Source: Bacteroidetes bacterium OLB9 (GTDB lineage Bacteria; Bacteroidota; Bacteroidia; Chitinophagales; Saprospiraceae). Taken from it: 64,000 bases of DNA. The stretch lies in assembly GCA_001567255.1 (NCBI GenBank), contig LNBW01000040.1:1-64000 (forward strand), in the 5' to 3' direction. The notes beneath the pieces were generated by a model, which made no database searches, was not told the DNA's origin, and worked only from the letters and a program-made list of their open reading frames with translations. A program made the position numbers and the translations under genes. This document shows positions 2,680-22,122 of this stretch, piece after piece. Numbering within the stretch: position 1 is the stretch's first letter; every line of letters begins with the position of its first letter.

Positions 2680-4472
2680 TTAATAAAATCGGATGATAGC
2701 AGATAATTCTGCATGGATACCTGGGTTTGGAAAAAATCGGACGATACTGTAGTCTTGATTCAGTAGGTTGTTGACATCAAGTCGTATCGTTGTGGCCCCT
2801 ATTTCTCGAGCTACATAAGCGGAGACTAGATGGTAAGCCTTTAGAAAGGAGCTTTCATCTGCTGCATCAAATCTAATATCAGTAAAGTCATATGCTAGAT
2901 GAAATCGCCAATGGTGACGACTATAATCTGTACTCAAACTTGCTTTGTGACGTGGAATATAGATCAGTTGTTTGCCAATAAGAGATGGATCATAATAATG
3001 CTCGAGTGCAGTCGTTCGATTAAATGCATATTCAATGTGAAAGTCAATGGCAGTTGTATTGATTGGATAGTGATAGTGAGCCTGCAACTCTACACCTCTG
3101 CTAAGGACTTTTTTCTGATTGGTGGCAGCCCAATTACCATTGCTATGTGGCACCCATTGTATCCAATCTCTTACCATATTAGCATAGACAGCAATCCGAC
3201 CACGCCATTGTTTGAATTGTGGAGAGAATTGTATTTCTCCCTTGAGTGCCTTTTCCGTTTTAAGATAAGGATTGCCTCCGACTGGCCAGTAAAGATCATT
3301 GAGTCCAGGAAGGTTGTAGTTAGAAGAAAAAATGACGGTCAGTTTTCGGTATTTATTGAGTAATGTCCAGGACAACGGCATCAGTTTTCCATCAGTTAGA
3401 TCCTGCCTGAAGCTGATGTGGGTCATAAAATCAGGTTCCCAATTGAAGTTTTTTGCTCCACTGAGTTGAGTTGTATTTCTATACTTAGTTTCTGTGTAAA
3501 AATTAGGACTAGCAGTTTCGCTTCTGTGTTGAAGGCCAAAATAATGGCTTTCTTTGTGGATTTCTGTCCAGCCGGTATTGATGATGAAAATATCTGTATT
3601 GGCTTTTGAATCTACACCTGGTGTCATAAAGTGGAGTTTTTCATTGGCGTAAGCAAAAGAAGTCTCCCATATATGTTTATTACCATAGTGTTTAGCTCCT
3701 ATACGAGTGCGTGTATTGATGTCTTTTTGCGTCTGTATAATACCACCGGAGGTGATGCTTTCGGGTATAATGCGATCACTATTCTGCCACCATAGATCAC
3801 CGATAATAACCGTATGCGGTGCAAGCTGATAGCTTATGCTGGTCATAACATCATTTTTTAGAAAGTCGGTCGTCTGCCTGTCTAGTTTTTTACGGTTGTA
3901 GGTATATGAATATTTATTGAGGTGATATCTAGACTGTACACCTAGCTTGAAACGCCATTTTTCTGCCATGTGGCGATAGACTACGCCTGCGTCATAGTTT
4001 TGGAGTGATGATGCCTTGAGTAGAATTTTAGAACCATTTTGCTTGATGGACGATGGATCCATGACCAATGCGCCTGCAAGGCCATTATTACCCGCTAGGC
4101 AGTATTGCCTGAACTATAAAACCGTAAATCGTCCATTAAAAATGCCGGTATCAGCGAAAGGTCCATAGACCCATTGACAATACTTTGCAAGTTGATGCCA
4201 TGCCACAAAATCGGAAGATGACGATTGCCTAGACCACGATGGAGCAGGGTAGTGAGTCCTCCGGGAGTGCTGTTTTGTACTTGTGTACCATTGATATCCT
4301 GTAAGTATTGGATGATATCTATGTATAGACTGTCACTATAACCTGCATCTGGCTGCAATATAGAAAATGCAAAAGGTCGATCAGCTGTGATCTCAACTGT
4401 ATCAATAGTGTATTGACCGAACAGATGGTGTCCGTACCCAATCAATATCCATATTATACTCCAGTAACGCAT
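2680..4472 (-). CDS. btuB: TonB-dependent cobalamin receptor BtuB-like (frameshifted in this sequence)
   Basis: The gene reads as two pieces. Bases 4472-4095 give a signal peptide (ending about residue 20), a TonB-box-like DTVEITA and the start of the plug domain. From about 4097 down to 2680 the rest of the plug and the 22-strand barrel follow, ending in the aromatic residue expected of an outer-membrane protein (...IIRFY). The first frame stops at TAG just after SSGNTA, while the second frame continues LAGNNGLAGALVMD. Adding one C to the CC at 4098-4100 (minus-strand GCCTAG to GCCCTAG) joins them into one 597-residue frame. A homopolymer sequencing error is the simplest explanation. The length is normal for BtuB. 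It is preceded by a cobalamin riboswitch and followed by the BtuG-like lipoprotein, so vitamin B12 is the likely substrate. Confidence 0.85.
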
Positions 4473-6952: not shown

Positions 6953-7699
6953 TTACCATGTACCTCCAGGATAGGCGCGTTGCAAAAACTGCATATCCGA
7001 AAGTAGGTGGCCGAGATATTCTGAATGTAAGCCGGTTTTGCCTCCTTTTTTATTGAAATATTGATCCGGCATCTTCAATGTGGCCTTAGTGATAACATCA
7101 TTGAGCCTTGCATAAGCTTGGTCCTTGATGGATGATAAGTCAGGGCTGATACCGGTTGACTGGCACACCTGCTCATAGTCGGCTGCCATAAATATCTCTT
7201 CAAAGAATGGTATCAGTCGCTCCAGTGCATCCTGCATTTTCTGATGGCTTTCGTCGGTGCCATCACCGAGTCGTATCGTCCATTCTCCTGAAAAAGTGAT
7301 ATGATAAGCTGCTTCTTTAATACTCTTCTTAGCAATGGAGGCCAGTGTTTCGTCGTTGCTGCGGGTCATGGCTTCAAGATGATAGTAATGCCAGCAGTCA
7401 AACAATAGCTGCCGTATTATGGTGTCGCCCCAGTTACCATTGGGTTGCTCGACGAGCAGGACATTTTTGAAGGAGCGAGCATCACGGCGCATCGGATAGT
7501 CGTCCTCTTCTTTACCTTCTTCATTCGCCAGATATTGATAATAATTCCTAGCTTCACCGATGAGATCCAGCGCGATATTAGTCAATGCGATATCTTGCTC
7601 TAGGATAGGGCCGTGGCCACACCATTCAGCGAGTCGCTGACCTAGAATCATCGAGTTGTCCGCCAGCATCATTGTAAAGTCTCTTAAATCTTTTTGCAT
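6953..7699 (-). CDS. paaC: 1,2-phenylacetyl-CoA epoxidase, subunit PaaC
   Basis: 248 residues matching PaaC, the structural non-catalytic partner of PaaA in the PaaABCE multicomponent mono-oxygenase that converts phenylacetyl-CoA to its ring-1,2-epoxide. Characteristic stretches are LAEWCGHGPILEQDIALTN, ALDLIGEARNYYQYLA, RNFLLVEQPNGNW-like (FKNVLLVEQPNGNWG) and KEAAYHITFSGEWTIRLGDGT. The gene starts 2 bases after the paaB stop. The gene that usually follows, paaD, is not present; a PlsC-like gene comes next. Confidence 0.93.
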   Translation of the reverse strand: MQKDLRDFTMMLADNSMILGQRLAEWCGHGPILEQDIALTNIALDLIGEARNYYQYLANEEGKEEDDYPMRRDARSFKNVLLVEQPNGNWGDTIIRQLLFDCWHYYHLEAMTRSNDETLASIAKKSIKEAAYHITFSGEWTIRLGDGTDESHQKMQDALERLIPFFEEIFMAADYEQVCQSTGISPDLSSIKDQAYARLNDVITKATLKMPDQYFNKKGGKTGLHSEYLGHLLSDMQFLQRAYPGGTW

Positions 7700-7701
7700 G
7701 A

Positions 7702-7983
7702 TTACATGTGTTTTACTGCGTCAGGTAATTCGTAAAAAGTAGGGTGTCTATAGATTTTGTCATCTGCAGGATCAAACAGCGCTTCGGAGTCATCTGGATT
7801 AGAAGCAGAGATGTATTTAGACTCTACGACCCAGATACTCACACCTTCTCCACGACGCGTATAGACATCTCTGGCATTTTGAACTGCCATTTGCGGATCA
7901 GCTGCATGAAGGCTGCCTACATGTTTGTGATTCAAGCCGTTTTTAGACCTGATAAAGATTTCGTATAGTGGCCAGTCGTTCAT
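7702..7983 (-). CDS. paaB: 1,2-phenylacetyl-CoA epoxidase, subunit PaaB
   Basis: 93 residues, the normal PaaB length. It contains the family pattern WPLYEIFIRSKNGLNHKHVG near the start, then ALQNARDVYTRRGEGVSIWVV-like and a C-terminal segment on which the AC subcomplexes bridge. PaaB is a small scaffold subunit of the phenylacetyl-CoA epoxidase. It is immediately followed by paaC. It is separated from paaA, its usual upstream neighbour, by the 3.75-kb protease-cellulase gene, whose stop lies 28 bases before the paaB start. Confidence 0.93.
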   Translation of the reverse strand: MNDWPLYEIFIRSKNGLNHKHVGSLHAADPQMAVQNARDVYTRRGEGVSIWVVESKYISASNPDDSEALFDPADDKIYRHPTFYELPDAVKHM

Positions 7984-8011: not shown

Positions 8012-11000
8012 TTAATCACATTGGATGGGTTTTGAAAATAATTTTCCACTGTTACTCACAGTAATCAGGTAGCAAATGCCGTCAGTATCCGTAGTTATCC
8101 ATCCATACCCCGGGTGGATCACAACGACATCGCCTATGGTTGATTCAATGTAGTTGCTCATCGGTACTGTAGCCGGAAAAGCATCAAGCGTACCGGACTT
8201 AGTTGCAGATACTTTCCATAAACTATTGTCGGGTGCTTTGATTAAGAGACCTTTGTCCGTTGATTCAGTAATCAGATATGCGTCTTTTATTAAGGTAGAT
8301 GATGATGGAATATTGATTACGGATTCAGTACTGATTTTTCCTGTATTGTCCACTATTATTCTGTAATGAGTGCTGTCTGGACTGGTCAAAACCACGCTTC
8401 TAGCTGTATTGTTGAAATAAAGATCAGTGTTGAATCTGACTTGTTTACCTGTGGGCAATGTATCAAGGCTTTTTCGAATGTGACCGGACAATAATTTCAG
8501 ATAGGCGGCTTGGGTATAAATGGCCGGTTCTGTGATCTCCCAAGAGTTTTGAGGCCAATCAGTATTCCAGTCATAGTACGACTTTAGAGCTGGTTGGCCT
8601 GAAGGTGGTGATAATGTAATGCACAAACTATTGTTTGCCGGGTTACCACATCCACTTGGACAGCAGCCATCTAGTGTCCACGAAGGGTTAGGGCCACCAG
8701 AAATAAATCCAGGTGCTGGTCCGTAATCGGATGATCGTACATCATCCCAGAGTGTGCTGCCATCGTTAAACCATGCGTGATATATGGAATTAATTGACCG
8801 GTCTGCTCCAAAACTTCGCATATTGGTTAGATAGGTGAGTGCATTTGGATTGACACCGTGCATATAGTGAATAAAGTCCGACGTGATATTCAGTATGGTT
8901 TGCTTTTTAGAGTTATCCAAATTAAAATGCAAATATTCTTGATAAATGTTGCCTTTGGTACTCTTAGTCTCATTGCTGCCCCAGGTGATATCGGTGGTCT
9001 TAACGTAAGCACGATAGGCGTCTGTATGGTTAGTATAAGATGGGATATATTCGGTTTGAGAATCCACACAATTTCTGTATGTATTTCTAATGGCATTAGC
9101 TACAGTTGGAGTTATACCTTTGAGTTGACTGAAGTGTAGTAGGCTAACCTGAACCACTGATTCAAATGGATAGACATATCCCCAACTCATCATATGCGTA
9201 GATGCGTAATTACTCTCAACATAACTTGAATAGTTTACATTACCGGTGATATCATAGAGATAGACGGCTGCGACTAACTGGCGAATAGTCCTTTCGTAAG
9301 CGTCAATTTCTTGCTCTCCTGAAGCGAGATTATTGGAGGCATTATAATAAGTGATACCAGGATTTGCCATAGCCCAGTTCCAGGCATCAATGGCTTTGGA
9401 TTGCAGACTGGCTGCATATGATTGCATAGAAGCGTTATTAATTTTAGCAAACTGTCGTGCCGCAAATGCAAAAATTCCTGCTGTACTCCATGTAGCAGAA
9501 GTGGTTTTAGGCCCATAGTATCTTGTAGCCGTGTCGTCAGACGGTGGCGATGCAGAAGCATAGTTCTGAACACCTACCACACAATGCACTCCACCATCTA
9601 GAGCTTGCATTTTGATCAACCAGTCCAGTTCGTATTTTATTTCATCTAGCAGGTCAGGTATGCCGTTGCCTGATTCAGGAATGTTTAAACTATCGGATTG
9701 CCAGGTTTCAGGGTTGATTTCAAATGACCAAAGCAGATCCATCAATGGTTTCCATGCAAAATTGACATATTTATTATAGTCTCCGGCATCATGCCAGCCT
9801 CCGGACATATTCTTGAATAAACTAACATTTGTCGGGTCATTGATATATTTGCAGATCGTATCTTGAGCATGGCAGATATCATCTACATACCCTTCTGCTA
9901 CATAAGAAGCACTTTTAGCAGTCCCACATCGTTGATAGTAAAATGTTTTGAATGCGGCTTCAAGTGCGCCATCATAGGCTTGGTCATTAATCACAAAGTC
10001 TTCAGACTTTATGCTACCATCAGGAAAGCCTGCAATATGATAGATTCCAGGAGTAGTAACAGCGCTAAAATCAAACCACCAAACCTGATCACCGCTTTGG
10101 TCATGTGTGTTTCCACTGTTCCAAGTAGTCGGTGTACCGGTGTAAACGATTTGGTGTGTTTTGGAATTTTTGACCACCATCGATGAAGGAGGTGTATAGT
10201 GTGTTGTATTGTTATATCCATTGATTGGATTAGATATCACTGCTATTTTTTGGGCTTGTGGTAGGTAGCCAAATTGGTCAACCTTGATAAATGGTACAAA
10301 TAGTTCGTCGAGGGCTCTATTGACAGCAGCTACAGCATCGATTCGCCCATATCCAAAGGTGTTATTAGGTATAGTAGTACCATTCGTCCCATTACAATTT
10401 TGACTGGAGGTTAGATGGACTGCTGTTTGCTCTATGATATCTTCGATTTGATCTACCTCTCCTGCCAGTTGTGGGTTGGCAGAAATCATCAATGCTACCA
10501 AGCCTGCCACATGTGGACCTGCCATACTTGTGCCACTATAATTAGCAAAGGTGCCATTTTTTATACAAGATCTGACACTGACACCGGGTGCAGCAACATT
10601 AGGCTTTAGCCGGTTTGAACCATCCACTGTTACAGTGCCTCTACTGCTAAAATTTGCTATAGCATCTGAACTATTTGTGGCGCCGACACTAAAACTTCCT
10701 TCGAAGATAGCTGCAGGGTCATTGACAGTATTACAGCTAGAGCCTGAATTTCCAGCAGATACTACAATGACACAACCGGCACTTCGTAGATTGTTGAGGG
10801 CTAGCTCCATTACACTAAAATTAGTAGAGTTACAGCCTTCACTAGGCGGGCAACCCCATGAATTATTGATGACGTGCGGCATTTTTGTGGGGTCACCTGA
10901 GCCACCAGATACAGGATAAGGTGCTAAAAACCATTCAAAACATTCTACATAAGTGCTTAATTGTCCATCGCCATTGTCCATATTGCGACATCCGATCCAT

Positions 11001-11761
11001 TTGGCACCTGGAGCTACACCGATATCATCACCGTTATTATCCGTATCTCCTACCATTGTTCCCATCGTGTGCGTTCCGTGGTTGTGATCGTCACAAGGTT
11101 CAGGGCTATCGTATCCACAAGGATTGGAGCCTTGATTGGAGTGAATGGCATCATGCCAGTTATAATCGTGGTTAGCAGTCATTCCATCCCATCCACGATA
11201 CTTACTTTTGATGGTTGCAACTTCCCAAGCATAGCCAGTGTCTTGACCGCCTATGACTACACCCTGGCCTGTATAACCCATTGACCATACTGTTGGTGCA
11301 CCTATCTTATTCAGACCCCATGTCGCTGATCTATTACCGCTTCCAAAGGATTCATCCCTTGCTGGTGGTTGCAACATTGAAAACTTTCCATCTTCGATGA
11401 CATAAGCTACATCATCACGGCGACTCAACATGCTAATGGTTTCATAATTGCAGGTGGCAGAGATCATATTGACGATGTAGTAAGAGCGGTGTCTAACCTT
11501 GTGCTCTACAAGCAGACGTATGATTTCCTGCTGAGTCATCGATGCATGTTTATAAAGATGCTCATATACATAGGTAGCTTTGGCATCTTTACCTCTAATA
11601 TTGGCTACTGCAGAAATATCTGCTTGATCTCGCATCATGATGATGACATCTTGTAGTGCCGTCGGATCACTTTTATGCAAGCGTACATCTACTTTTTCAA
11701 TGATCTGGGCATGGGCTACATGGAGAAAGCAGACCAGTGTAATAAGAAAAAGGTATCTCAT
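8012..11761 (-). CDS. Secreted subtilisin-like protease fused to a GH9 cellulase-type glycosidase
   Basis: 1249 residues in one uninterrupted frame. Residues 1-19 form a signal peptide (ending AHAQ). Residues about 20-135 look like an I9-type propeptide. An S8 peptidase domain follows with all three catalytic motifs: Asp174 (GGQDTGYAWE), His228 (HGTHTMGT) and Ser412 (GTSMAGPHVAG), with the oxyanion-hole Asn in VINNSWG. After a linker, residues about 490-590 form an Ig-like CelD-N domain (VDQFGYLPQAQKIAVI). Next is a GH9 (alpha/alpha)6 domain with the base/nucleophile pair in GGWHDAGDY (Asp658, Asp661), the HGVNPNALTYL loop near 968, and the acid glutamate in WEITEPAIYTQ (Glu1078). A beta-rich tail of about 150 residues has no recognisable T9SS sorting domain. 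It sits between paaA (29 bases before) and paaB (28 bases after) on the same strand. The separate domain families are well known; their fusion is unusual. Confidence 0.88.
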   Translation of the reverse strand: MRYLFLITLVCFLHVAHAQIIEKVDVRLHKSDPTALQDVIIMMRDQADISAVANIRGKDAKATYVYEHLYKHASMTQQEIIRLLVEHKVRHRSYYIVNMISATCNYETISMLSRRDDVAYVIEDGKFSMLQPPARDESFGSGNRSATWGLNKIGAPTVWSMGYTGQGVVIGGQDTGYAWEVATIKSKYRGWDGMTANHDYNWHDAIHSNQGSNPCGYDSPEPCDDHNHGTHTMGTMVGDTDNNGDDIGVAPGAKWIGCRNMDNGDGQLSTYVECFEWFLAPYPVSGGSGDPTKMPHVINNSWGCPPSEGCNSTNFSVMELALNNLRSAGCVIVVSAGNSGSSCNTVNDPAAIFEGSFSVGATNSSDAIANFSSRGTVTVDGSNRLKPNVAAPGVSVRSCIKNGTFANYSGTSMAGPHVAGLVALMISANPQLAGEVDQIEDIIEQTAVHLTSSQNCNGTNGTTIPNNTFGYGRIDAVAAVNRALDELFVPFIKVDQFGYLPQAQKIAVISNPINGYNNTTHYTPPSSMVVKNSKTHQIVYTGTPTTWNSGNTHDQSGDQVWWFDFSAVTTPGIYHIAGFPDGSIKSEDFVINDQAYDGALEAAFKTFYYQRCGTAKSASYVAEGYVDDICHAQDTICKYINDPTNVSLFKNMSGGWHDAGDYNKYVNFAWKPLMDLLWSFEINPETWQSDSLNIPESGNGIPDLLDEIKYELDWLIKMQALDGGVHCVVGVQNYASASPPSDDTATRYYGPKTTSATWSTAGIFAFAARQFAKINNASMQSYAASLQSKAIDAWNWAMANPGITYYNASNNLASGEQEIDAYERTIRQLVAAVYLYDITGNVNYSSYVESNYASTHMMSWGYVYPFESVVQVSLLHFSQLKGITPTVANAIRNTYRNCVDSQTEYIPSYTNHTDAYRAYVKTTDITWGSNETKSTKGNIYQEYLHFNLDNSKKQTILNITSDFIHYMHGVNPNALTYLTNMRSFGADRSINSIYHAWFNDGSTLWDDVRSSDYGPAPGFISGGPNPSWTLDGCCPSGCGNPANNSLCITLSPPSGQPALKSYYDWNTDWPQNSWEITEPAIYTQAAYLKLLSGHIRKSLDTLPTGKQVRFNTDLYFNNTARSVVLTSPDSTHYRIIVDNTGKISTESVINIPSSSTLIKDAYLITESTDKGLLIKAPDNSLWKVSATKSGTLDAFPATVPMSNYIESTIGDVVVIHPGYGWITTDTDGICYLITVSNSGKLFSKPIQCD

Positions 11762-11790: not shown

Positions 11791-12747
11791 TTAAGCTATG
11801 GAAGTCCTGATCTGATCATCATTTTTATGCTTTTCAGCATAAACCATCGCGGCTTCGCGAACCCAAGCACCGTCTTCATGTGCCTTTATACGAGCAGCCA
11901 TCCTTTCTTGATTGCAAGGTCCATTACCGGCAATGACCTGATAGAACTCTTCCCAGTCAATCTCACCAAAATCATAATGTCCGGTGGTTTCATTCCACTT
12001 TAGGTCGGGGTCAGGTAGTGTAATGCCTAAAACGGCTGCCTGTGGCACTGTCATATCTATAAATTTCTGACGTAGTGCATCATTAGCCTGCCGTTTAATT
12101 TTCCATTTCATCGATTGAGCGCTATGCGGCGAATCCTTATCAGTTGGGCCAAACATCATCAGAGAAGGCCACCACCATCTGTTGGCAGCATCTTGCACCA
12201 TTTCCTTTTGCTCTGGTGTACCTTGCATCATGGTGTAAAGTATGTCAAAACCCTGTCTCTGGTGGAACGACTCTTCTTTACAAATGCGGACCATCGCTCG
12301 TGAATAGGGGCCATATGAAGTACGTGTCAAAGCGACCTGATTGACGATAGCTGCACCATCAACAAGCCAGCCTATGGCTCCTATGTCTGCCCAGGTGAGC
12401 GTAGGATAATTAAATATGCTTGAATATTTTGCTTTTCCGGTTAATAGCTGATCTATCAGCTCATTGCGTGAAATACCGAGGGTCTCAGCTGCAGAATAAA
12501 GGTACAGGCCGTGTCCGGCTTCGTCTTGTACCTTAGCGAGCAAGCCTAGCTTACGGCGCAAACTAGGAGCACGTGTAAGCCAGTTGCCCTCCGGCAACAT
12601 GCCTACTACTTCGGAGTGTGCATGTTGCGAAATCTGACGAATGAGTGTCTTGCGGTATGCATCCGGCATCCAATTTCGTGGTTCGATTTTCTCTTCTTGA
12701 TCTACAATGTTCTGAAATTGCTCATCTAAAGAATTAATGTTAGACAT
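11791..12747 (-). CDS. paaA: 1,2-phenylacetyl-CoA epoxidase, catalytic subunit PaaA
   Basis: 318 residues matching the di-iron oxygenase subunit PaaA. The carboxylate/histidine motifs are visible: [16 protein letters not shown] (ExxH, about residues 72-87) and the second helix pair with [12 protein letters not shown] (about 157-168), plus [12 protein letters not shown] and the C-terminal [11 protein letters not shown]. It inserts one oxygen atom into the aromatic ring of phenylacetyl-CoA. A near-consensus -7 box (TATCTTTC, 12781-12774) lies 27 bases ahead of the start, so transcription may begin here as well as from paaE. The gene order is paaE-paaA-(fusion gene)-paaB-paaC. Confidence 0.95.
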
Positions 12748-12952: not shown

Positions 12953-14026
12953 CTAAGCATCAAAATCTACATAGATATGTGGTGAACGTGGATGGGACTG
13001 ACACATCAATGCATAACCTGCCTCCACTTCATCATCTTCCAGCGCATAATTTTTATCCATGACCACTTCGCCTTCGGTAACTTTTGCCTTACAGGTACTG
13101 CATACACCACCTTTGCAAGAGTAGGGTAGGTCAATCCCTGCGGCAATACCGGCATCTAGAATACTTTGTCCTCCATATTCAAGGTCGTATTCAAAGACAT
13201 CACCGTCGATTTGAACAGTAACAATACTTTGCTTTCTTTTTTCATCAGCATCGATACTTTCAGTATCTGGAATATTGCTTTGCAGATTTTCAGTATTAAA
13301 GAGTTCAAATTGAATTTTGTGTGGATCTATTCCAGCTTCAATCAGAGCATCCTTGACCGTAAAAATCATTTCATTGGGTCCGCAAATCATGACGATATCG
13401 GTATCTTTCGGATTGAATAAAATCTTGCTATATGTAAGACATTTCTCTTTGTCGATACGACCTGAAAATAATGGTGCATCAGTGTGCTCTTGAGAAAAAA
13501 TATGATAAATGGCAAACCGTCTCGGAAATTTGTTTTTCAAATTATCTAACTCTTCTCTAAACATTACAGAAGCAGTATTTTTATTGCCAAAAAACAGCAT
13601 CACATTAGTCTCTGGCTGATGGTGCAGTGCATGTCGGATGTGAGACATCACTGGCGTGATACCTGAGCCTGCTGCAAAGAAAACGATATTTTTGTGATGA
13701 TCGTGATGGGTAGTAAAATTGCCCATAGGTGACATTACTTCAATGGTATCACCTATTTTCAATGTATTATTAACATAATTAGAGAAGATGCCGTGACTGG
13801 TGGCTTTTACGGCCACTGACCATTTATTTTCATCTGGAGCAGTGCACAGAGAATAAGAACGTCTTATTTCCTGTCCATCAAAAAAATGCCTTAAGGTCAA
13901 ATGTTGTCCTGATTTAAACTGAAAGATATCCTTTAAACTTTCGGGAATTTCAAAGGTAATTTCAACAGATTCTGGTGTAAGCTGGCGGATGTTTTCAACC
14001 TTTAAAGGATAGAATTTAGTGCTCAT
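12953..14026 (-). CDS. paaE: 1,2-phenylacetyl-CoA epoxidase, reductase subunit PaaE
   Basis: The frame is open from 14107, but the ATG at 14026 (MSTKFYPLKVENIRQ) is chosen. It gives 357 residues, the usual PaaE length, and a TATCTTTG -7 box lies at 14061-14054, inside the longer version. Domains in order: FAD-binding ferredoxin reductase (RRSYSLCTAPDE), NADPH domain (FAAGSGITPVMSHI, MICGPNEMI), and a C-terminal plant-type 2Fe-2S ferredoxin with CKGGVCSTCKAKV followed by a fourth cysteine in LMCQSHP. It passes electrons from NADPH to PaaA. It is separated from paaA by 205 bases. Confidence 0.94.
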   Translation of the reverse strand: MSTKFYPLKVENIRQLTPESVEITFEIPESLKDIFQFKSGQHLTLRHFFDGQEIRRSYSLCTAPDENKWSVAVKATSHGIFSNYVNNTLKIGDTIEVMSPMGNFTTHHDHHKNIVFFAAGSGITPVMSHIRHALHHQPETNVMLFFGNKNTASVMFREELDNLKNKFPRRFAIYHIFSQEHTDAPLFSGRIDKEKCLTYSKILFNPKDTDIVMICGPNEMIFTVKDALIEAGIDPHKIQFELFNTENLQSNIPDTESIDADEKRKQSIVTVQIDGDVFEYDLEYGGQSILDAGIAAGIDLPYSCKGGVCSTCKAKVTEGEVVMDKNYALEDDEVEAGYALMCQSHPRSPHIYVDFDA

Positions 14027-14053
14027 GGAAGTGTGTTTGATGATAATCGATGG

Positions 14054-14061
14054 CAAAGATA
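14054..14061 (-). promoter_or_regulatory. -7 box of the paaE promoter (TATCTTTG)
   Basis: Exact consensus on the minus strand, 27 bases before the chosen ATG at 14026. It is the main argument for the shorter paaE start. Confidence 0.65.
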
Positions 14062-14122
14062 GAAAAATAAAATACAGACCGAAATTCTGAAAAACGAAAA
14101 TCAGCAAATCTAATCTGATGTT

Positions 14123-17466: not shown

Positions 17467-20400
17467 CTAATTTTGAATATTCAACTGTTGGCCGGTAAGG
17501 ATGGTCAGTAATACATTTTGTGCTAGTTTCAACGAATGGATCGTGGTAGTGATGTTGACCTGAGGCGCATGTGTATAATTATTATCAATTATTACGTCTG
17601 TATTTTCGTTTGGTATGCACCATCTGTCCCAGTTGCATCGGTTAGACCATTCTGCACTAACACTGCCATTCCATCGATTGGTTGCTAGACATTTTGGATC
17701 AGGAGCGATATCAAGTAAGGCTTGGTATTTCGGTGCGGTGACCGAATAAGGAGGTGCTACATCAATATCTCTTAGAACACCCCACGAACCGTAGATACTT
17801 TCCTGAGCACCCGCAAGACTGAAATTAGTCGCAAGTCTGCAACCCCATGTTCGGATAGAGTCATGAATCATTCGATACATGTCATACATTTGTGTACTAT
17901 ATTGAGCATCCCACATAGCCTGCTGGTAAGGATAAGGTATGCCAAATACATTGCCCACGAAATGCTGGCCACCTTCATATGTGATGACTTCTTTTCCCAT
18001 CATATGAACATTTCTGTAATCCTGTTTAACAGATTCTTTAAATGCCAAAAAGTTATTGAGCGCATTGGTCATAATATCATTGACTGTCGAAAAGGTGTCT
18101 AACACCGGATTGCCGGTGGTATCATGGTCTAATCCAAAATAATGAGTGGGTGATGCAAAATCCCAGTCATCTTGATTTAATTGCGCTAAAATCTGCTCAT
18201 TTAAATAATTAAATCCGGCCTGAATGCCTAGAACCCGTTTAACTCGACAAGTTTCTGATTGAAAAACATCATGCCAAATGTCAAATACATTTTTAGCTTT
18301 GATGGCCATGCTCTGCCATAATTTAAGTTAAAAGGGCGATGATTATTATTGTAATGTGCCTGATCAAAAATCCAGTTCCATACTTCATTGCTGTATTCAA
18401 GGTATATGACTATATCCGGATCGAGGTTGTTTTTAAATAATAGGGCCATTTGTTCTATAAAATCATCATTTGCTTGATGGGGAACACATACCCAAATATC
18501 TTTTTTAGTTATATTGGCGAGCTGGATGATTAATTCATAAGGTACACCCTGATCTGTACCGTAAGTAAAATAATGCGGTAGGGTGCGTTCGTTCCAATTG
18601 ATCATAGGGTTATTGTTGGTTCGCTGCCAATCCATAAACCTCAATACAGAAAAGGGGTCAATTTTATTGAGAAAATTACTGTAGAATGGTTCGCTAGTTA
18701 AATCAGTAAATTCATCTTCTAGACGTACTACTCTAATATTTCTTATGTAGTTGCTTGGGTCAGAGGAAGTAATTTGAAACCAAAAAGTACCATCAGGATC
18801 TAGGTCAAATTGTATTCTACCTGGCTGGTAATTATCTGAGGAGATGGTCCCACTCAGTTCGATGGTTCCGTTGCCATCATATAGTAGTAGATAGGTGTGA
18901 CCTGGAGGCATATTTTCTCCAGAAGATGAAACAAAATACCTAAGTTTGATATTACCGTATGTAGTGGACTGAGGTATGGAAGTCGGATAACCACTGGTGT
19001 CAAAACTCATCTGATTGAATATAGAATCATTAGCAGTGTCACTAAATGACCAGCAACCGCAAGCATCAGTATAAGGAATCGCCTCGCCGCGAGTGTTCTT
19101 CAAAAAGTTTCTAAAAGCCCTATGAGGTTCCCAGTCAGCTAATCCGGGCAGATTGGTTCCTATTTCCATTGCACATTCCTGAGCTTGCCAACCTGAACAA
19201 GTTGTACTATCAACAGTTATATAAATGTCATAACTTTCACTACATCCATTGCTACCTGAAACTTCAAGTTGATACACTCCTATTACTAATCCTATATATT
19301 CATTATTTGCATTGGGTGTGATAAGATTGCCATTTAGGGTGAGCTCTGAGGAGGTGTTTCCTGGCAGATTGACTCTAAAACTCCCATTTGAGCCCGAACA
19401 ATCAGCCTGTCGTATAGATGTAACAGATGACAAACAAGGAAATACACCGCTACTATCTGTTACGGTAATATTAATGGTACTTGAAGAAGTGTTTCCGTTG
19501 ATATCTGTCACTGTTAGTGTGGCTGTTGCTACACCACCTGGATAGGTATATATATGATTAGGTGCTTCCTGGGTGCTGATGTCACTGCCATCTCCGAAAT
19601 CCCATAAATAGGTCAAGGTACCACTTGTGTTATTGATAGATCCGGAGCCATCAAAGGCCACCAATAAAGGTGCCGCTCCAGAATCTGGCATAGCCGAAAT
19701 GATAGCTACCGGAGGCAAGTCAACAGGTGTATTTTGATCTGGACTAACACATTCATATGTAGTGGCGAATCTGATTTCGTCCAGAGCGCCTTCACCAGGT
19801 TGCTACCGCCATAGAAGGCTAGACTTTTAAATACAAAAGGCGTTGTTGTTTGAATCGAGATATCAGGGGTTGCTGGCGGTAATCCAGCTATTGGGGTAGG
19901 ATTGACAAAAAGCTCAATATCTGTTGCAGTATTACCAAAAGTCAATTTCAATACTAAAAATGCCGGTGCGCCTTGATTTACAGGAATAGAAGTAGGATAT
20001 ATCGTTCCATTAAAAAATAAGGACCATCTACGCTGTCCGCTTACATTTGATCCGCTACCATAATATCCGGCTCCTAATCTAAGATTGCCTTGACACAAAT
20101 TGCACCATGGAGTGTTATCATTATGTAATTCAACATATACTTCTTCATCATTATTTTGATTCTTTTGAAGAATAAAGCTAATCCACAATTCTTGATCACC
20201 TTTAGCAGACCCAATGGAAAGGTTTGATGGGTCAATATATTGGCTCATGGGACCATTAACTTCGGTATTCAGTCGCCTACCTGATGCTAAATAAGACTGG
20301 CCGCCTGTGATGTGTCTTCCAGCCGTCTGAAGATCAAGATAAGACAAGGACCCCGTGCCATCAATGGTTTGATAACCGGGCACTTGGGTATTTCCGTTTT

Positions 20401-20621
20401 GAACTTGCCAATTGTCAGAAAACCCGGTACCACCTGAAAGGTTGTGCAAAGCAATATTCTGGGCATAGTTAAAGTCTTCATATACCAGATAATTACAGCC
20501 AAGTGGCGCACTTGCTTTAGGAGAATAAGTTTGAAGTGAATTATTTATATTTTGTTTATAAGTTATAGAAAACAAATTGGTTGAAATAAAGAGAGAGAGA
20601 AGTATAAAAAATGTTTTTCAT
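17467..20621 (-). pseudogene. Secreted PKD-containing putative glycosidase, broken by three frame changes
   Basis: Three overlapping pieces in two frames form one protein if repaired. ATG at 20621 gives MKNIFYTSLSL, then loses frame in a (CT)5 run. One more CT unit restores the signal peptide (...FISTNLFSITYK). A missing C (plus-strand CC at 19795-19796) and another missing C (CC at 18306-18307) account for the other breaks. The repaired length is 1052 residues. Domains: concanavalin-like N-terminal module, PKD domain around 300-390 (WDFGDGSDISTQ...TVTDINGN), a short adhesin-like repeat, then a catalytic-looking domain of about 480 residues. The last has YSNEVWNW (near 744) and TYEGGQHF (near 882), placed like the acid/base and nucleophile glutamates of a clan GH-A barrel. 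The tail carries a NRWNGSVSAEWSNRCNW motif. No sorting domain is seen. The enzyme family is not recognised. With three breaks, real decay is possible, but each is a simple repeat-length change. Confidence 0.65.
20591..20600. repeat. Dinucleotide repeat (GA)5 inside a signal-peptide region
   Basis: Read on the minus strand it is (TC)5, 7 codons after the ATG at 20621. Five units put the gene out of frame; six would put it in frame with the rest of the signal peptide. This could be a slipped-strand phase switch or an error. Confidence 0.6.
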
Positions 20622-21023: not shown

Positions 21024-22122
21024 TTACATTGGCAATTTAACACTACCTACTGCCATGATTCTTTCTTCAGCAATGCGATTAGCTATCTGATAAGTCGGGA
21101 TATTCTCTTTGGCTGAACGCTGAATGATATTCTGGATAGTCGTGTATATTTCTTCGGCTTTTTTCATGCCCCATTCAGGATTTAAGCCTTTAAATTCAGT
21201 GTAAACATTGATAACGCCACCTGAATTAATAGCAAAGTCAGGTGCATAAATTATGCCTTTTTCCATCACTGCTTTGCCATGCTTATCTTCATCTTTGAGC
21301 TGATTATTGGCAGAACCTGCGATAATTGAACATTTTAGTCTGCTGAGGGTGTCATCATTGACAGTGGCTCCCAGGGCACAAGGTGCGTAGATATCTACAT
21401 CTATATCGTAAATTTCATCCAATCCGACCACTGTAGCACCGTATTGACCGGATATGCGTTTGAGTAAATCTTGATTTATGTCAGAGATAAAGACCTGAGC
21501 ACCTTCTTTAGCAAGATGAGCTACTAAATATTCACCTACATGGCCTACACCTTGAACAGAAATTTTTTTTGCCGCTTAATGAATCTGTACCAAACTGTTC
21601 TTTAGCAGCAGCTTTCATACCAACATAAACACCATAAGCTGTGACTGGTGACGGGTCTCCACTTTTACCTGGTAATCCAACTACATGGTTGGTTTCCATA
21701 TTGATCCAGATCATATCTTGTGGGCTGGTGCCTACGTCTTCAGCAGTGACATATTTGCCGCCAAGGCTATTAACAAACTTCCCAAAACGACGCATGTAGG
21801 CTTCGTTTTTCATAGTTTTTGAATCTCCGATGATTACAGATTTTCCACCACCTAGATTAAGACCGGCTAGGGAATTTTTATAGGTCATACCTCTTGAAAG
21901 CCTCAGTACATCTGTAAGGGCTTCCATTTCATTATTATATTTCCAGATTCGGGATCCGCCGAGTGCAGGGCCTAATACTGTATTGTGGATGCCAATAATG
22001 GCCTTAAGTCCAGTCTCATTGTCATTGCAAAATACAATCTGCTCGTGATCAAACTGACTCATCTGAGCCAGCACTGGATTTTCGCTAATATTTACATCCG
22101 TAATATCTTTTACTTCAAACAT
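21024..22122 (-). CDS. ldh: Leucine dehydrogenase-like Glu/Leu/Phe/Val dehydrogenase (frameshifted in this sequence)
   Basis: Two pieces of one gene. Residues 1-190 carry the substrate domain ([26 protein letters not shown] with the catalytic lysine, [12 protein letters not shown]). The first frame then ends in [16 protein letters not shown] because of a T8 run at 21563-21570. With seven bases it reads [16 protein letters not shown], the NAD-binding GxGxxG fold, and continues to 21024 ([33 protein letters not shown]). The repaired protein has 365 residues, exactly the family length. The family reversibly deaminates branched-chain amino acids to 2-oxo acids with NAD+. Extra homopolymer base, hence probably a sequencing error. 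An inverted repeat (22157-22177) lies upstream. Confidence 0.9.

Follow-up and report, generated by a model that had tools for sequence, protein, structure and literature searches.

How did a subtilisin-type protease and a GH9 cellulase-type domain come to occupy a single polypeptide, and what might such a protein do? The question is raised by one gene in the window, the whole 64,000-nucleotide stretch of Bacteroidetes bacterium OLB9 DNA analysed here (genome G000). An initial annotation, which gave no strand, had described an unbroken frame of 1249 codons at 8012–11761; the frame is indeed uninterrupted and lies on the minus strand. The gene, its parts and its neighbours are as follows.

8012..11761, minus strand: S8–CelD_N–GH9–CTD fusion gene, 1249 aa (uninterrupted open reading frame and domain profiles; intact in five genomes)
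11708..11761, minus strand: signal-peptide-like N terminus, residues 1–18 (read from the sequence)
11375..11707, minus strand: presumed S8 propeptide, residues 19–129 (position before S8 and conservation with S8 relatives)
10346..11269, minus strand: Peptidase_S8 domain, residues 165–472, with D174, H228, N338 and S412 (Pfam, alignment, structure match)
10295..10345, minus strand: S8/CelD_N junction, residues 473–489, fusion-specific motif (alignment and model; recombination boundary inferred)
10034..10294, minus strand: CelD_N Ig-like domain, residues 490–576 (Pfam)
8495..9976, minus strand: GH9 catalytic domain, residues 596–1089, with D658, D661 and E1078 (Pfam, alignment, structure match)
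8015..8440, minus strand: C-terminal module (CTD), residues 1108–1249, three ~49-aa beta repeats (repeat and profile analysis, model)
11791..12747, minus strand: paaA, upstream neighbour, 29-bp gap (profile match)
7702..7983, minus strand: paaB, downstream neighbour, 28-bp gap (profile match)
6953..7699, minus strand: paaC (profile match)
12953..14107, minus strand: paaE-like reductase (409 bits, just under the NCBIfam cut-off of 420.8)

Both enzyme domains are present at or near full length. In Pfam searches, Peptidase_S8 (PF00082) matches residues 165–472 across profile positions 1–288 of 288 (E = 3.9e-41; 141.7 bits against a cut-off of 21.8), CelD_N matches residues 490–576 (E = 1.3e-16) and Glyco_hydro_9 (PF00759) matches residues 596–1089 across profile positions 1–442 of 444 (E = 1.6e-54; 186.4 bits against a cut-off of 27.7). 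The catalytic residues named in the initial annotation hold up in alignment: the S8 triad Asp174, His228 and Ser412, together with the oxyanion Asn338, is invariant in 48 aligned S8 relatives, and in the GH9 domain, where the motif GGWHDAGDY begins at residue 654, Asp658, Asp661 and Glu1078 are invariant in 40 GH9 relatives. On these sequence-level features, full-length domains and catalytic residues, the protein would be placed in both the S8 and GH9 families. A signal-peptide-like stretch (MRYLFLITLVCFLHVAHA-Q), recognized by eye from sequence only, is present at the N terminus, in line with the signal peptide proposed earlier; a Pfam search of the protein found no match to the I9 propeptide model in the region of residues 19–129 that follows. 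A model of residues 127–1249 (pLDDT 87.7, pTM 0.85; confidence low near residues 1037–1076) aligns with subtilisins over its S8 part (TMt about 0.9) and with CelD and BoGH9A over its GH9 part (TMt about 0.85). The fusion is the sole GH9 protein detected in its own 3.16-Mb genome.

The two halves meet abruptly. Residues 470–500 had been taken for a linker, a view that the domain boundaries do not bear out: S8 ends near residue 484 and the CelD_N Ig-like domain follows directly from residue 490. The model predicts an ordered junction (mean pLDDT 86–88 over model blocks 351–370), and residues ~475–489 carry a motif, AVxRAxxxLxVPxIK, that is common to the fusions described below and seen only in them. 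These observations bear on the earlier suggestion that the protease acts chiefly on its own chain, cutting at the junction so as to mature or free the GH9 part. It is common for S8 proteases to process their own propeptides (SpBcA, PMC11982257), and the protease and GH9 domain do share one chain. With no linker present, however, and with the junction ordered in the prediction and conserved in its motif, such a cut is unlikely, and relatives of each half exist on their own, GH9 proteins without a protease and S8 proteins without GH9. We therefore regard maturation by self-cleavage as improbable.

Beyond GH9 lies a third module that the initial annotation had missed. Residues ~1108–1249 form a separate C-terminal module, the CTD, comprising three repeats of ~49 aa that are all-beta in the model; its AlphaFold model is of high confidence (pLDDT 91.8). 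No Pfam or NCBIfam model matches the CTD and a Foldseek search with its model returned no match at E <= 0.001; judged by these profile searches, the module would lie outside any curated family. Comparison with solved structures by VIA-align places beta-trefoils top, with the lectin actinohivin (3a07; Z 4.7, 91 aligned residues, rmsd 4.0) sharing the three repeats and all-beta make-up of the CTD, but because the best Z is only 4.7, too low to establish the fold, a trefoil is suggested rather than shown. Full-length CTDs lie at the extreme C terminus, with 0–4 residues after them, in various secreted proteins of the family Saprospiraceae, including ~640-aa S8 proteins, a 785-aa GH9 protein (L146, genome G286), choice-of-anchor-B proteins and, in the OLB9 genome itself, a reprolysin-like metalloprotease with Calx-beta (G000:C21). 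The T9SS type A tail TIGR04183 is found instead at the end of an S8 paralogue and of related GH9 proteins, and searches of the fusion protein with Pfam and NCBIfam gave no match to that tail (TIGR04183 / PF18962, Por_Secre_tail). In a census made with a crude, home-made tail profile, T9SS-A tails were found on 20 S8 and 15 GH9 relatives and CTDs on 6 S8 and 1 GH9 relatives. The CTD probably places or binds its protein outside the cell and may retain or target the fusion protein there; export through the T9SS by a signal other than the type A tail could also operate. Many further proteins of the family match the final CTD repeat by itself, so that the repeats may make up a far larger family than the three-repeat form does.

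Each enzyme half has well-described counterparts. Stand-alone Bacteroidota S8 subtilases with a sorting tail at the C terminus, such as L148 from the same genome and SpBcA from Bergeyella cardium (PMC11982257), share with the fusion a signal-peptide-like start, a pro-region, the S8 domain and a C-terminal extension but, unlike it, lack GH9; L148 ends in a T9SS type A tail, whereas the fusion ends in the different CTD. CelD (1clc), a metagenomic endoglucanase (3x17) and the xyloglucanase BoGH9A (6dht) have the same CelD_N and GH9 fold and catalytic residues (TMt about 0.85), and none of these chains carries the protease domain that sets the fusion apart; the solved GH9 relatives of the fusion thus include endoglucanases and a xyloglucanase. 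Among multi-activity glycoside hydrolases, the GH9–CBM3–GH48 enzyme CelA (PMC3865294, PMC6892212) resembles the fusion in joining two catalytic domains, one of them GH9, in one secreted polypeptide, but both of its activities are directed at polysaccharide, whereas one activity of the fusion is that of a protease. The main text of a survey of multi-domain bacterial cellulases names no peptidase partner (PMC4928363), and in the loci that we checked the usual partners of GH9 are CBM, fn3, PKD or a second GH9. Other long GH9 proteins were considered as candidate S8 fusions and rejected, those checked carrying esterase, CBM, fn3, PKD, beta-helix, polysaccharide deacetylase or second GH9 domains. 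Two other GH9 combinations were seen along the way: in an uncommon fusion of genome G141 (L013:1276-4344), CelD_N and GH9 come after an esterase-like alpha/beta hydrolase, and in G061 a single protein (L199:749-3292, G061:C189) has GH9 ahead of a polysaccharide deacetylase domain. We found no description of an S8–GH9 fusion in the open-licence literature, which is weak evidence given that scope. As far as our searches reach, S8–GH9 would be a new domain architecture assembled from known families.

The same architecture recurs in a few uncultured bacteria of the family. Five separately assembled genomes, OLB9 among them and at least two genera represented, encode an S8–GH9 protein that runs end to end without internal stops, with identities to the OLB9 protein of 68% (G009), 57% (G061), 55% (G207) and 53–54% (G003). 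A whole-protein search of 149 relatives and a CTD search of 398 family genomes placed fusions in these five only, and the same five were returned when the GH9–CTD part was compared with 398 genomes of the order and the whole protein with 395 genomes of the class. The order and class searches scored the best two candidates per genome, so rarer fusion copies could be missed. That just five genomes emerged across all searches made agrees with the earlier impression that the architecture is not a standard one.

The position of the gene provides a comparison between fused and unfused forms. In OLB9 the fusion sits inside a phenylacetyl-CoA epoxidase cluster, with paaA on one side and paaB on the other, and the fusion of G009 likewise lies between paaA and paaB. 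Six sister genomes (G001, G002, G004, G006, G007 and G008) carry a ~640-aa S8–CTD protein at exactly this spot. In G003, paaA and paaB are adjacent and the fusion sits elsewhere; in G061 and G207 (contig probably JABDLO010000146) it occupies unrelated loci. This comparison indicates that a protease gene within the paa cluster is common in the genus and that the GH9 block is a variant of it. The short gaps suggest that the fusion may be co-transcribed with the paa genes. The secreted S8 protease that the six sister genomes encode inside this cluster (loci L035, L036, L037, L038, L039 and L092) has no evident connection with the breakdown of phenylacetate.

The initial annotation allowed that the fusion could be an artefact, to be recognized by close relatives with separate halves together with a stop or indel near residue 485; an assembly or a sequencing error would be the cause. 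The first part stands for the S8 half, which close relatives have alone at the same locus, so that sister genomes show only S8 between paaA and paaB, and the window does contain other apparently broken genes. The second part fails: the OLB9 gene has no stop or indel, and the same in-frame architecture, with its conserved junction, recurs intact in four other separately assembled genomes and at several unrelated loci. The fusion is for this reason neither a chance frame nor an assembly error, and we reject the artefact as scarcely credible. The apparently broken genes of the window, all on the minus strand, are a Glu/Leu/Phe/Val dehydrogenase split over two open reading frames (21024–21431 and 21532–22122; ELFV_dehydrog and ELFV_dehydrog_N), which suggests a frameshift or assembly indel; three overlapping open reading frames in different frames at 17467–20575, one with a PKD domain, apparently the frameshifted pieces of one large secreted protein; and a TonB-dependent receptor whose beta-barrel and plug fall in separate frames (2680–4068 and 4095–4472), a probable break.

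Phylogenies of the separate parts point to different histories for the two halves. The GH9 tree groups the five fusions in a single clade (100/99), with the stand-alone secreted GH9–CTD protein L146 of G286 as its sister (100/99). The CTD tree also unites the fusion CTDs (84/94; 94% of bootstrap trees), apart from those of S8–CTD proteins; this tree has weakly supported parts and long branches, and it does not clearly show the G286 CTD as the closest to those of the fusions. The S8 half of the OLB9 fusion, by contrast, has the stand-alone protein of G004 as its sister (100/97), and one clade of all fusion S8 halves is rejected (p-AU 6.4e-5), as is one of G000 and G009 alone (p 0.0076); the paa genes give the tree (G000,(G009,G004)). 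Because the GH9–CTD block has a single origin and the S8 halves are not a clade, the block most likely replaced the CTD of a resident S8 gene, and the separate grouping of the fusion CTDs, away from S8–CTD, makes it most likely that the CTD arrived with GH9. The sequence FIKVDQFGYLP, which comes almost directly after the signal-peptide-like stretch in the G286 protein, follows S8 directly in the fusion. Two simpler histories were set aside: insertion of GH9 into an S8–CTD gene that kept its old CTD, suspected from colinearity, was dropped on the separate clade of fusion CTDs, and the S8 tree led us to reject one ancestral fusion inherited as a clade in all parts. When fusions and S8–CTD proteins were aligned at full length with MAFFT, the CTD was misplaced, and that alignment was not used for the CTD boundary.

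Taken at its simplest, this history would begin with the in-frame joining of an S8 domain to a GH9–CTD block akin to a secreted GH9–CTD enzyme that stands alone. Within the G000 lineage the block would have replaced the native CTD of an S8–CTD gene between paaA and paaB, with later exchange between fused and unfused forms as the simplest reading. The number of exchanges or reversions may fit more than one history, as G004, with its S8–CTD gene, lies among fusion-bearing sisters. One could also ask whether the fusion is largely a neutral recombination product of genes that share a CTD, its two activities never cooperating: the two forms, S8–CTD and fusion, replace one another between sister species at one locus, and recombination could make use of the CTD that they share. 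Yet both active sites are invariant, and between G000 and G009, with synonymous sites saturated, nonsynonymous difference is 12% (S8) and 22% (GH9), such that both enzyme halves look constrained; the fusion moreover persists in at least two genera and at several loci. A neutral origin without cooperation thus seems unlikely to us.

As a whole, the evidence is best explained by a secreted two-enzyme protein that arose when a GH9–CTD block joined an S8 gene, an account that we consider probable. In the predicted protein, an S8 protease would run straight into a CelD_N–GH9 domain of beta-glucanase type with no flexible linker in between, and the CTD would form the end. Both domains may act jointly on a mixed protein and beta-glucan matrix such as flocs or cell walls. 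Such joint action is an assumption, and at this locus six sister genomes get by with no more than S8–CTD. Activated-sludge Saprospiraceae are reported to hydrolyse protein and to carry endoglucanase genes and the T9SS (PMC9304909, PMC11495043), reports with which a two-activity matrix enzyme fits. A more far-reaching and tentative possibility is that in Saprospiraceae the CTD acts at the outer surface as an undescribed module for sorting, retention or glycan binding, taking the place of the T9SS tail and serving as an exchange point for enzyme blocks, the fusion being a dedicated two-activity matrix degrader made in this way.

A single secreted polypeptide with protease and beta-glucanase parts could break down protein and glucan jointly in mixed matrices. 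The paa locus offers a natural before-and-after comparison: six sister genomes show the S8–CTD state and two the S8–GH9–CTD state, and elsewhere in the family the added GH9–CTD block still has a relative that stands alone. The finding also points to an uncharacterized C-terminal module carried by several kinds of secreted protein.
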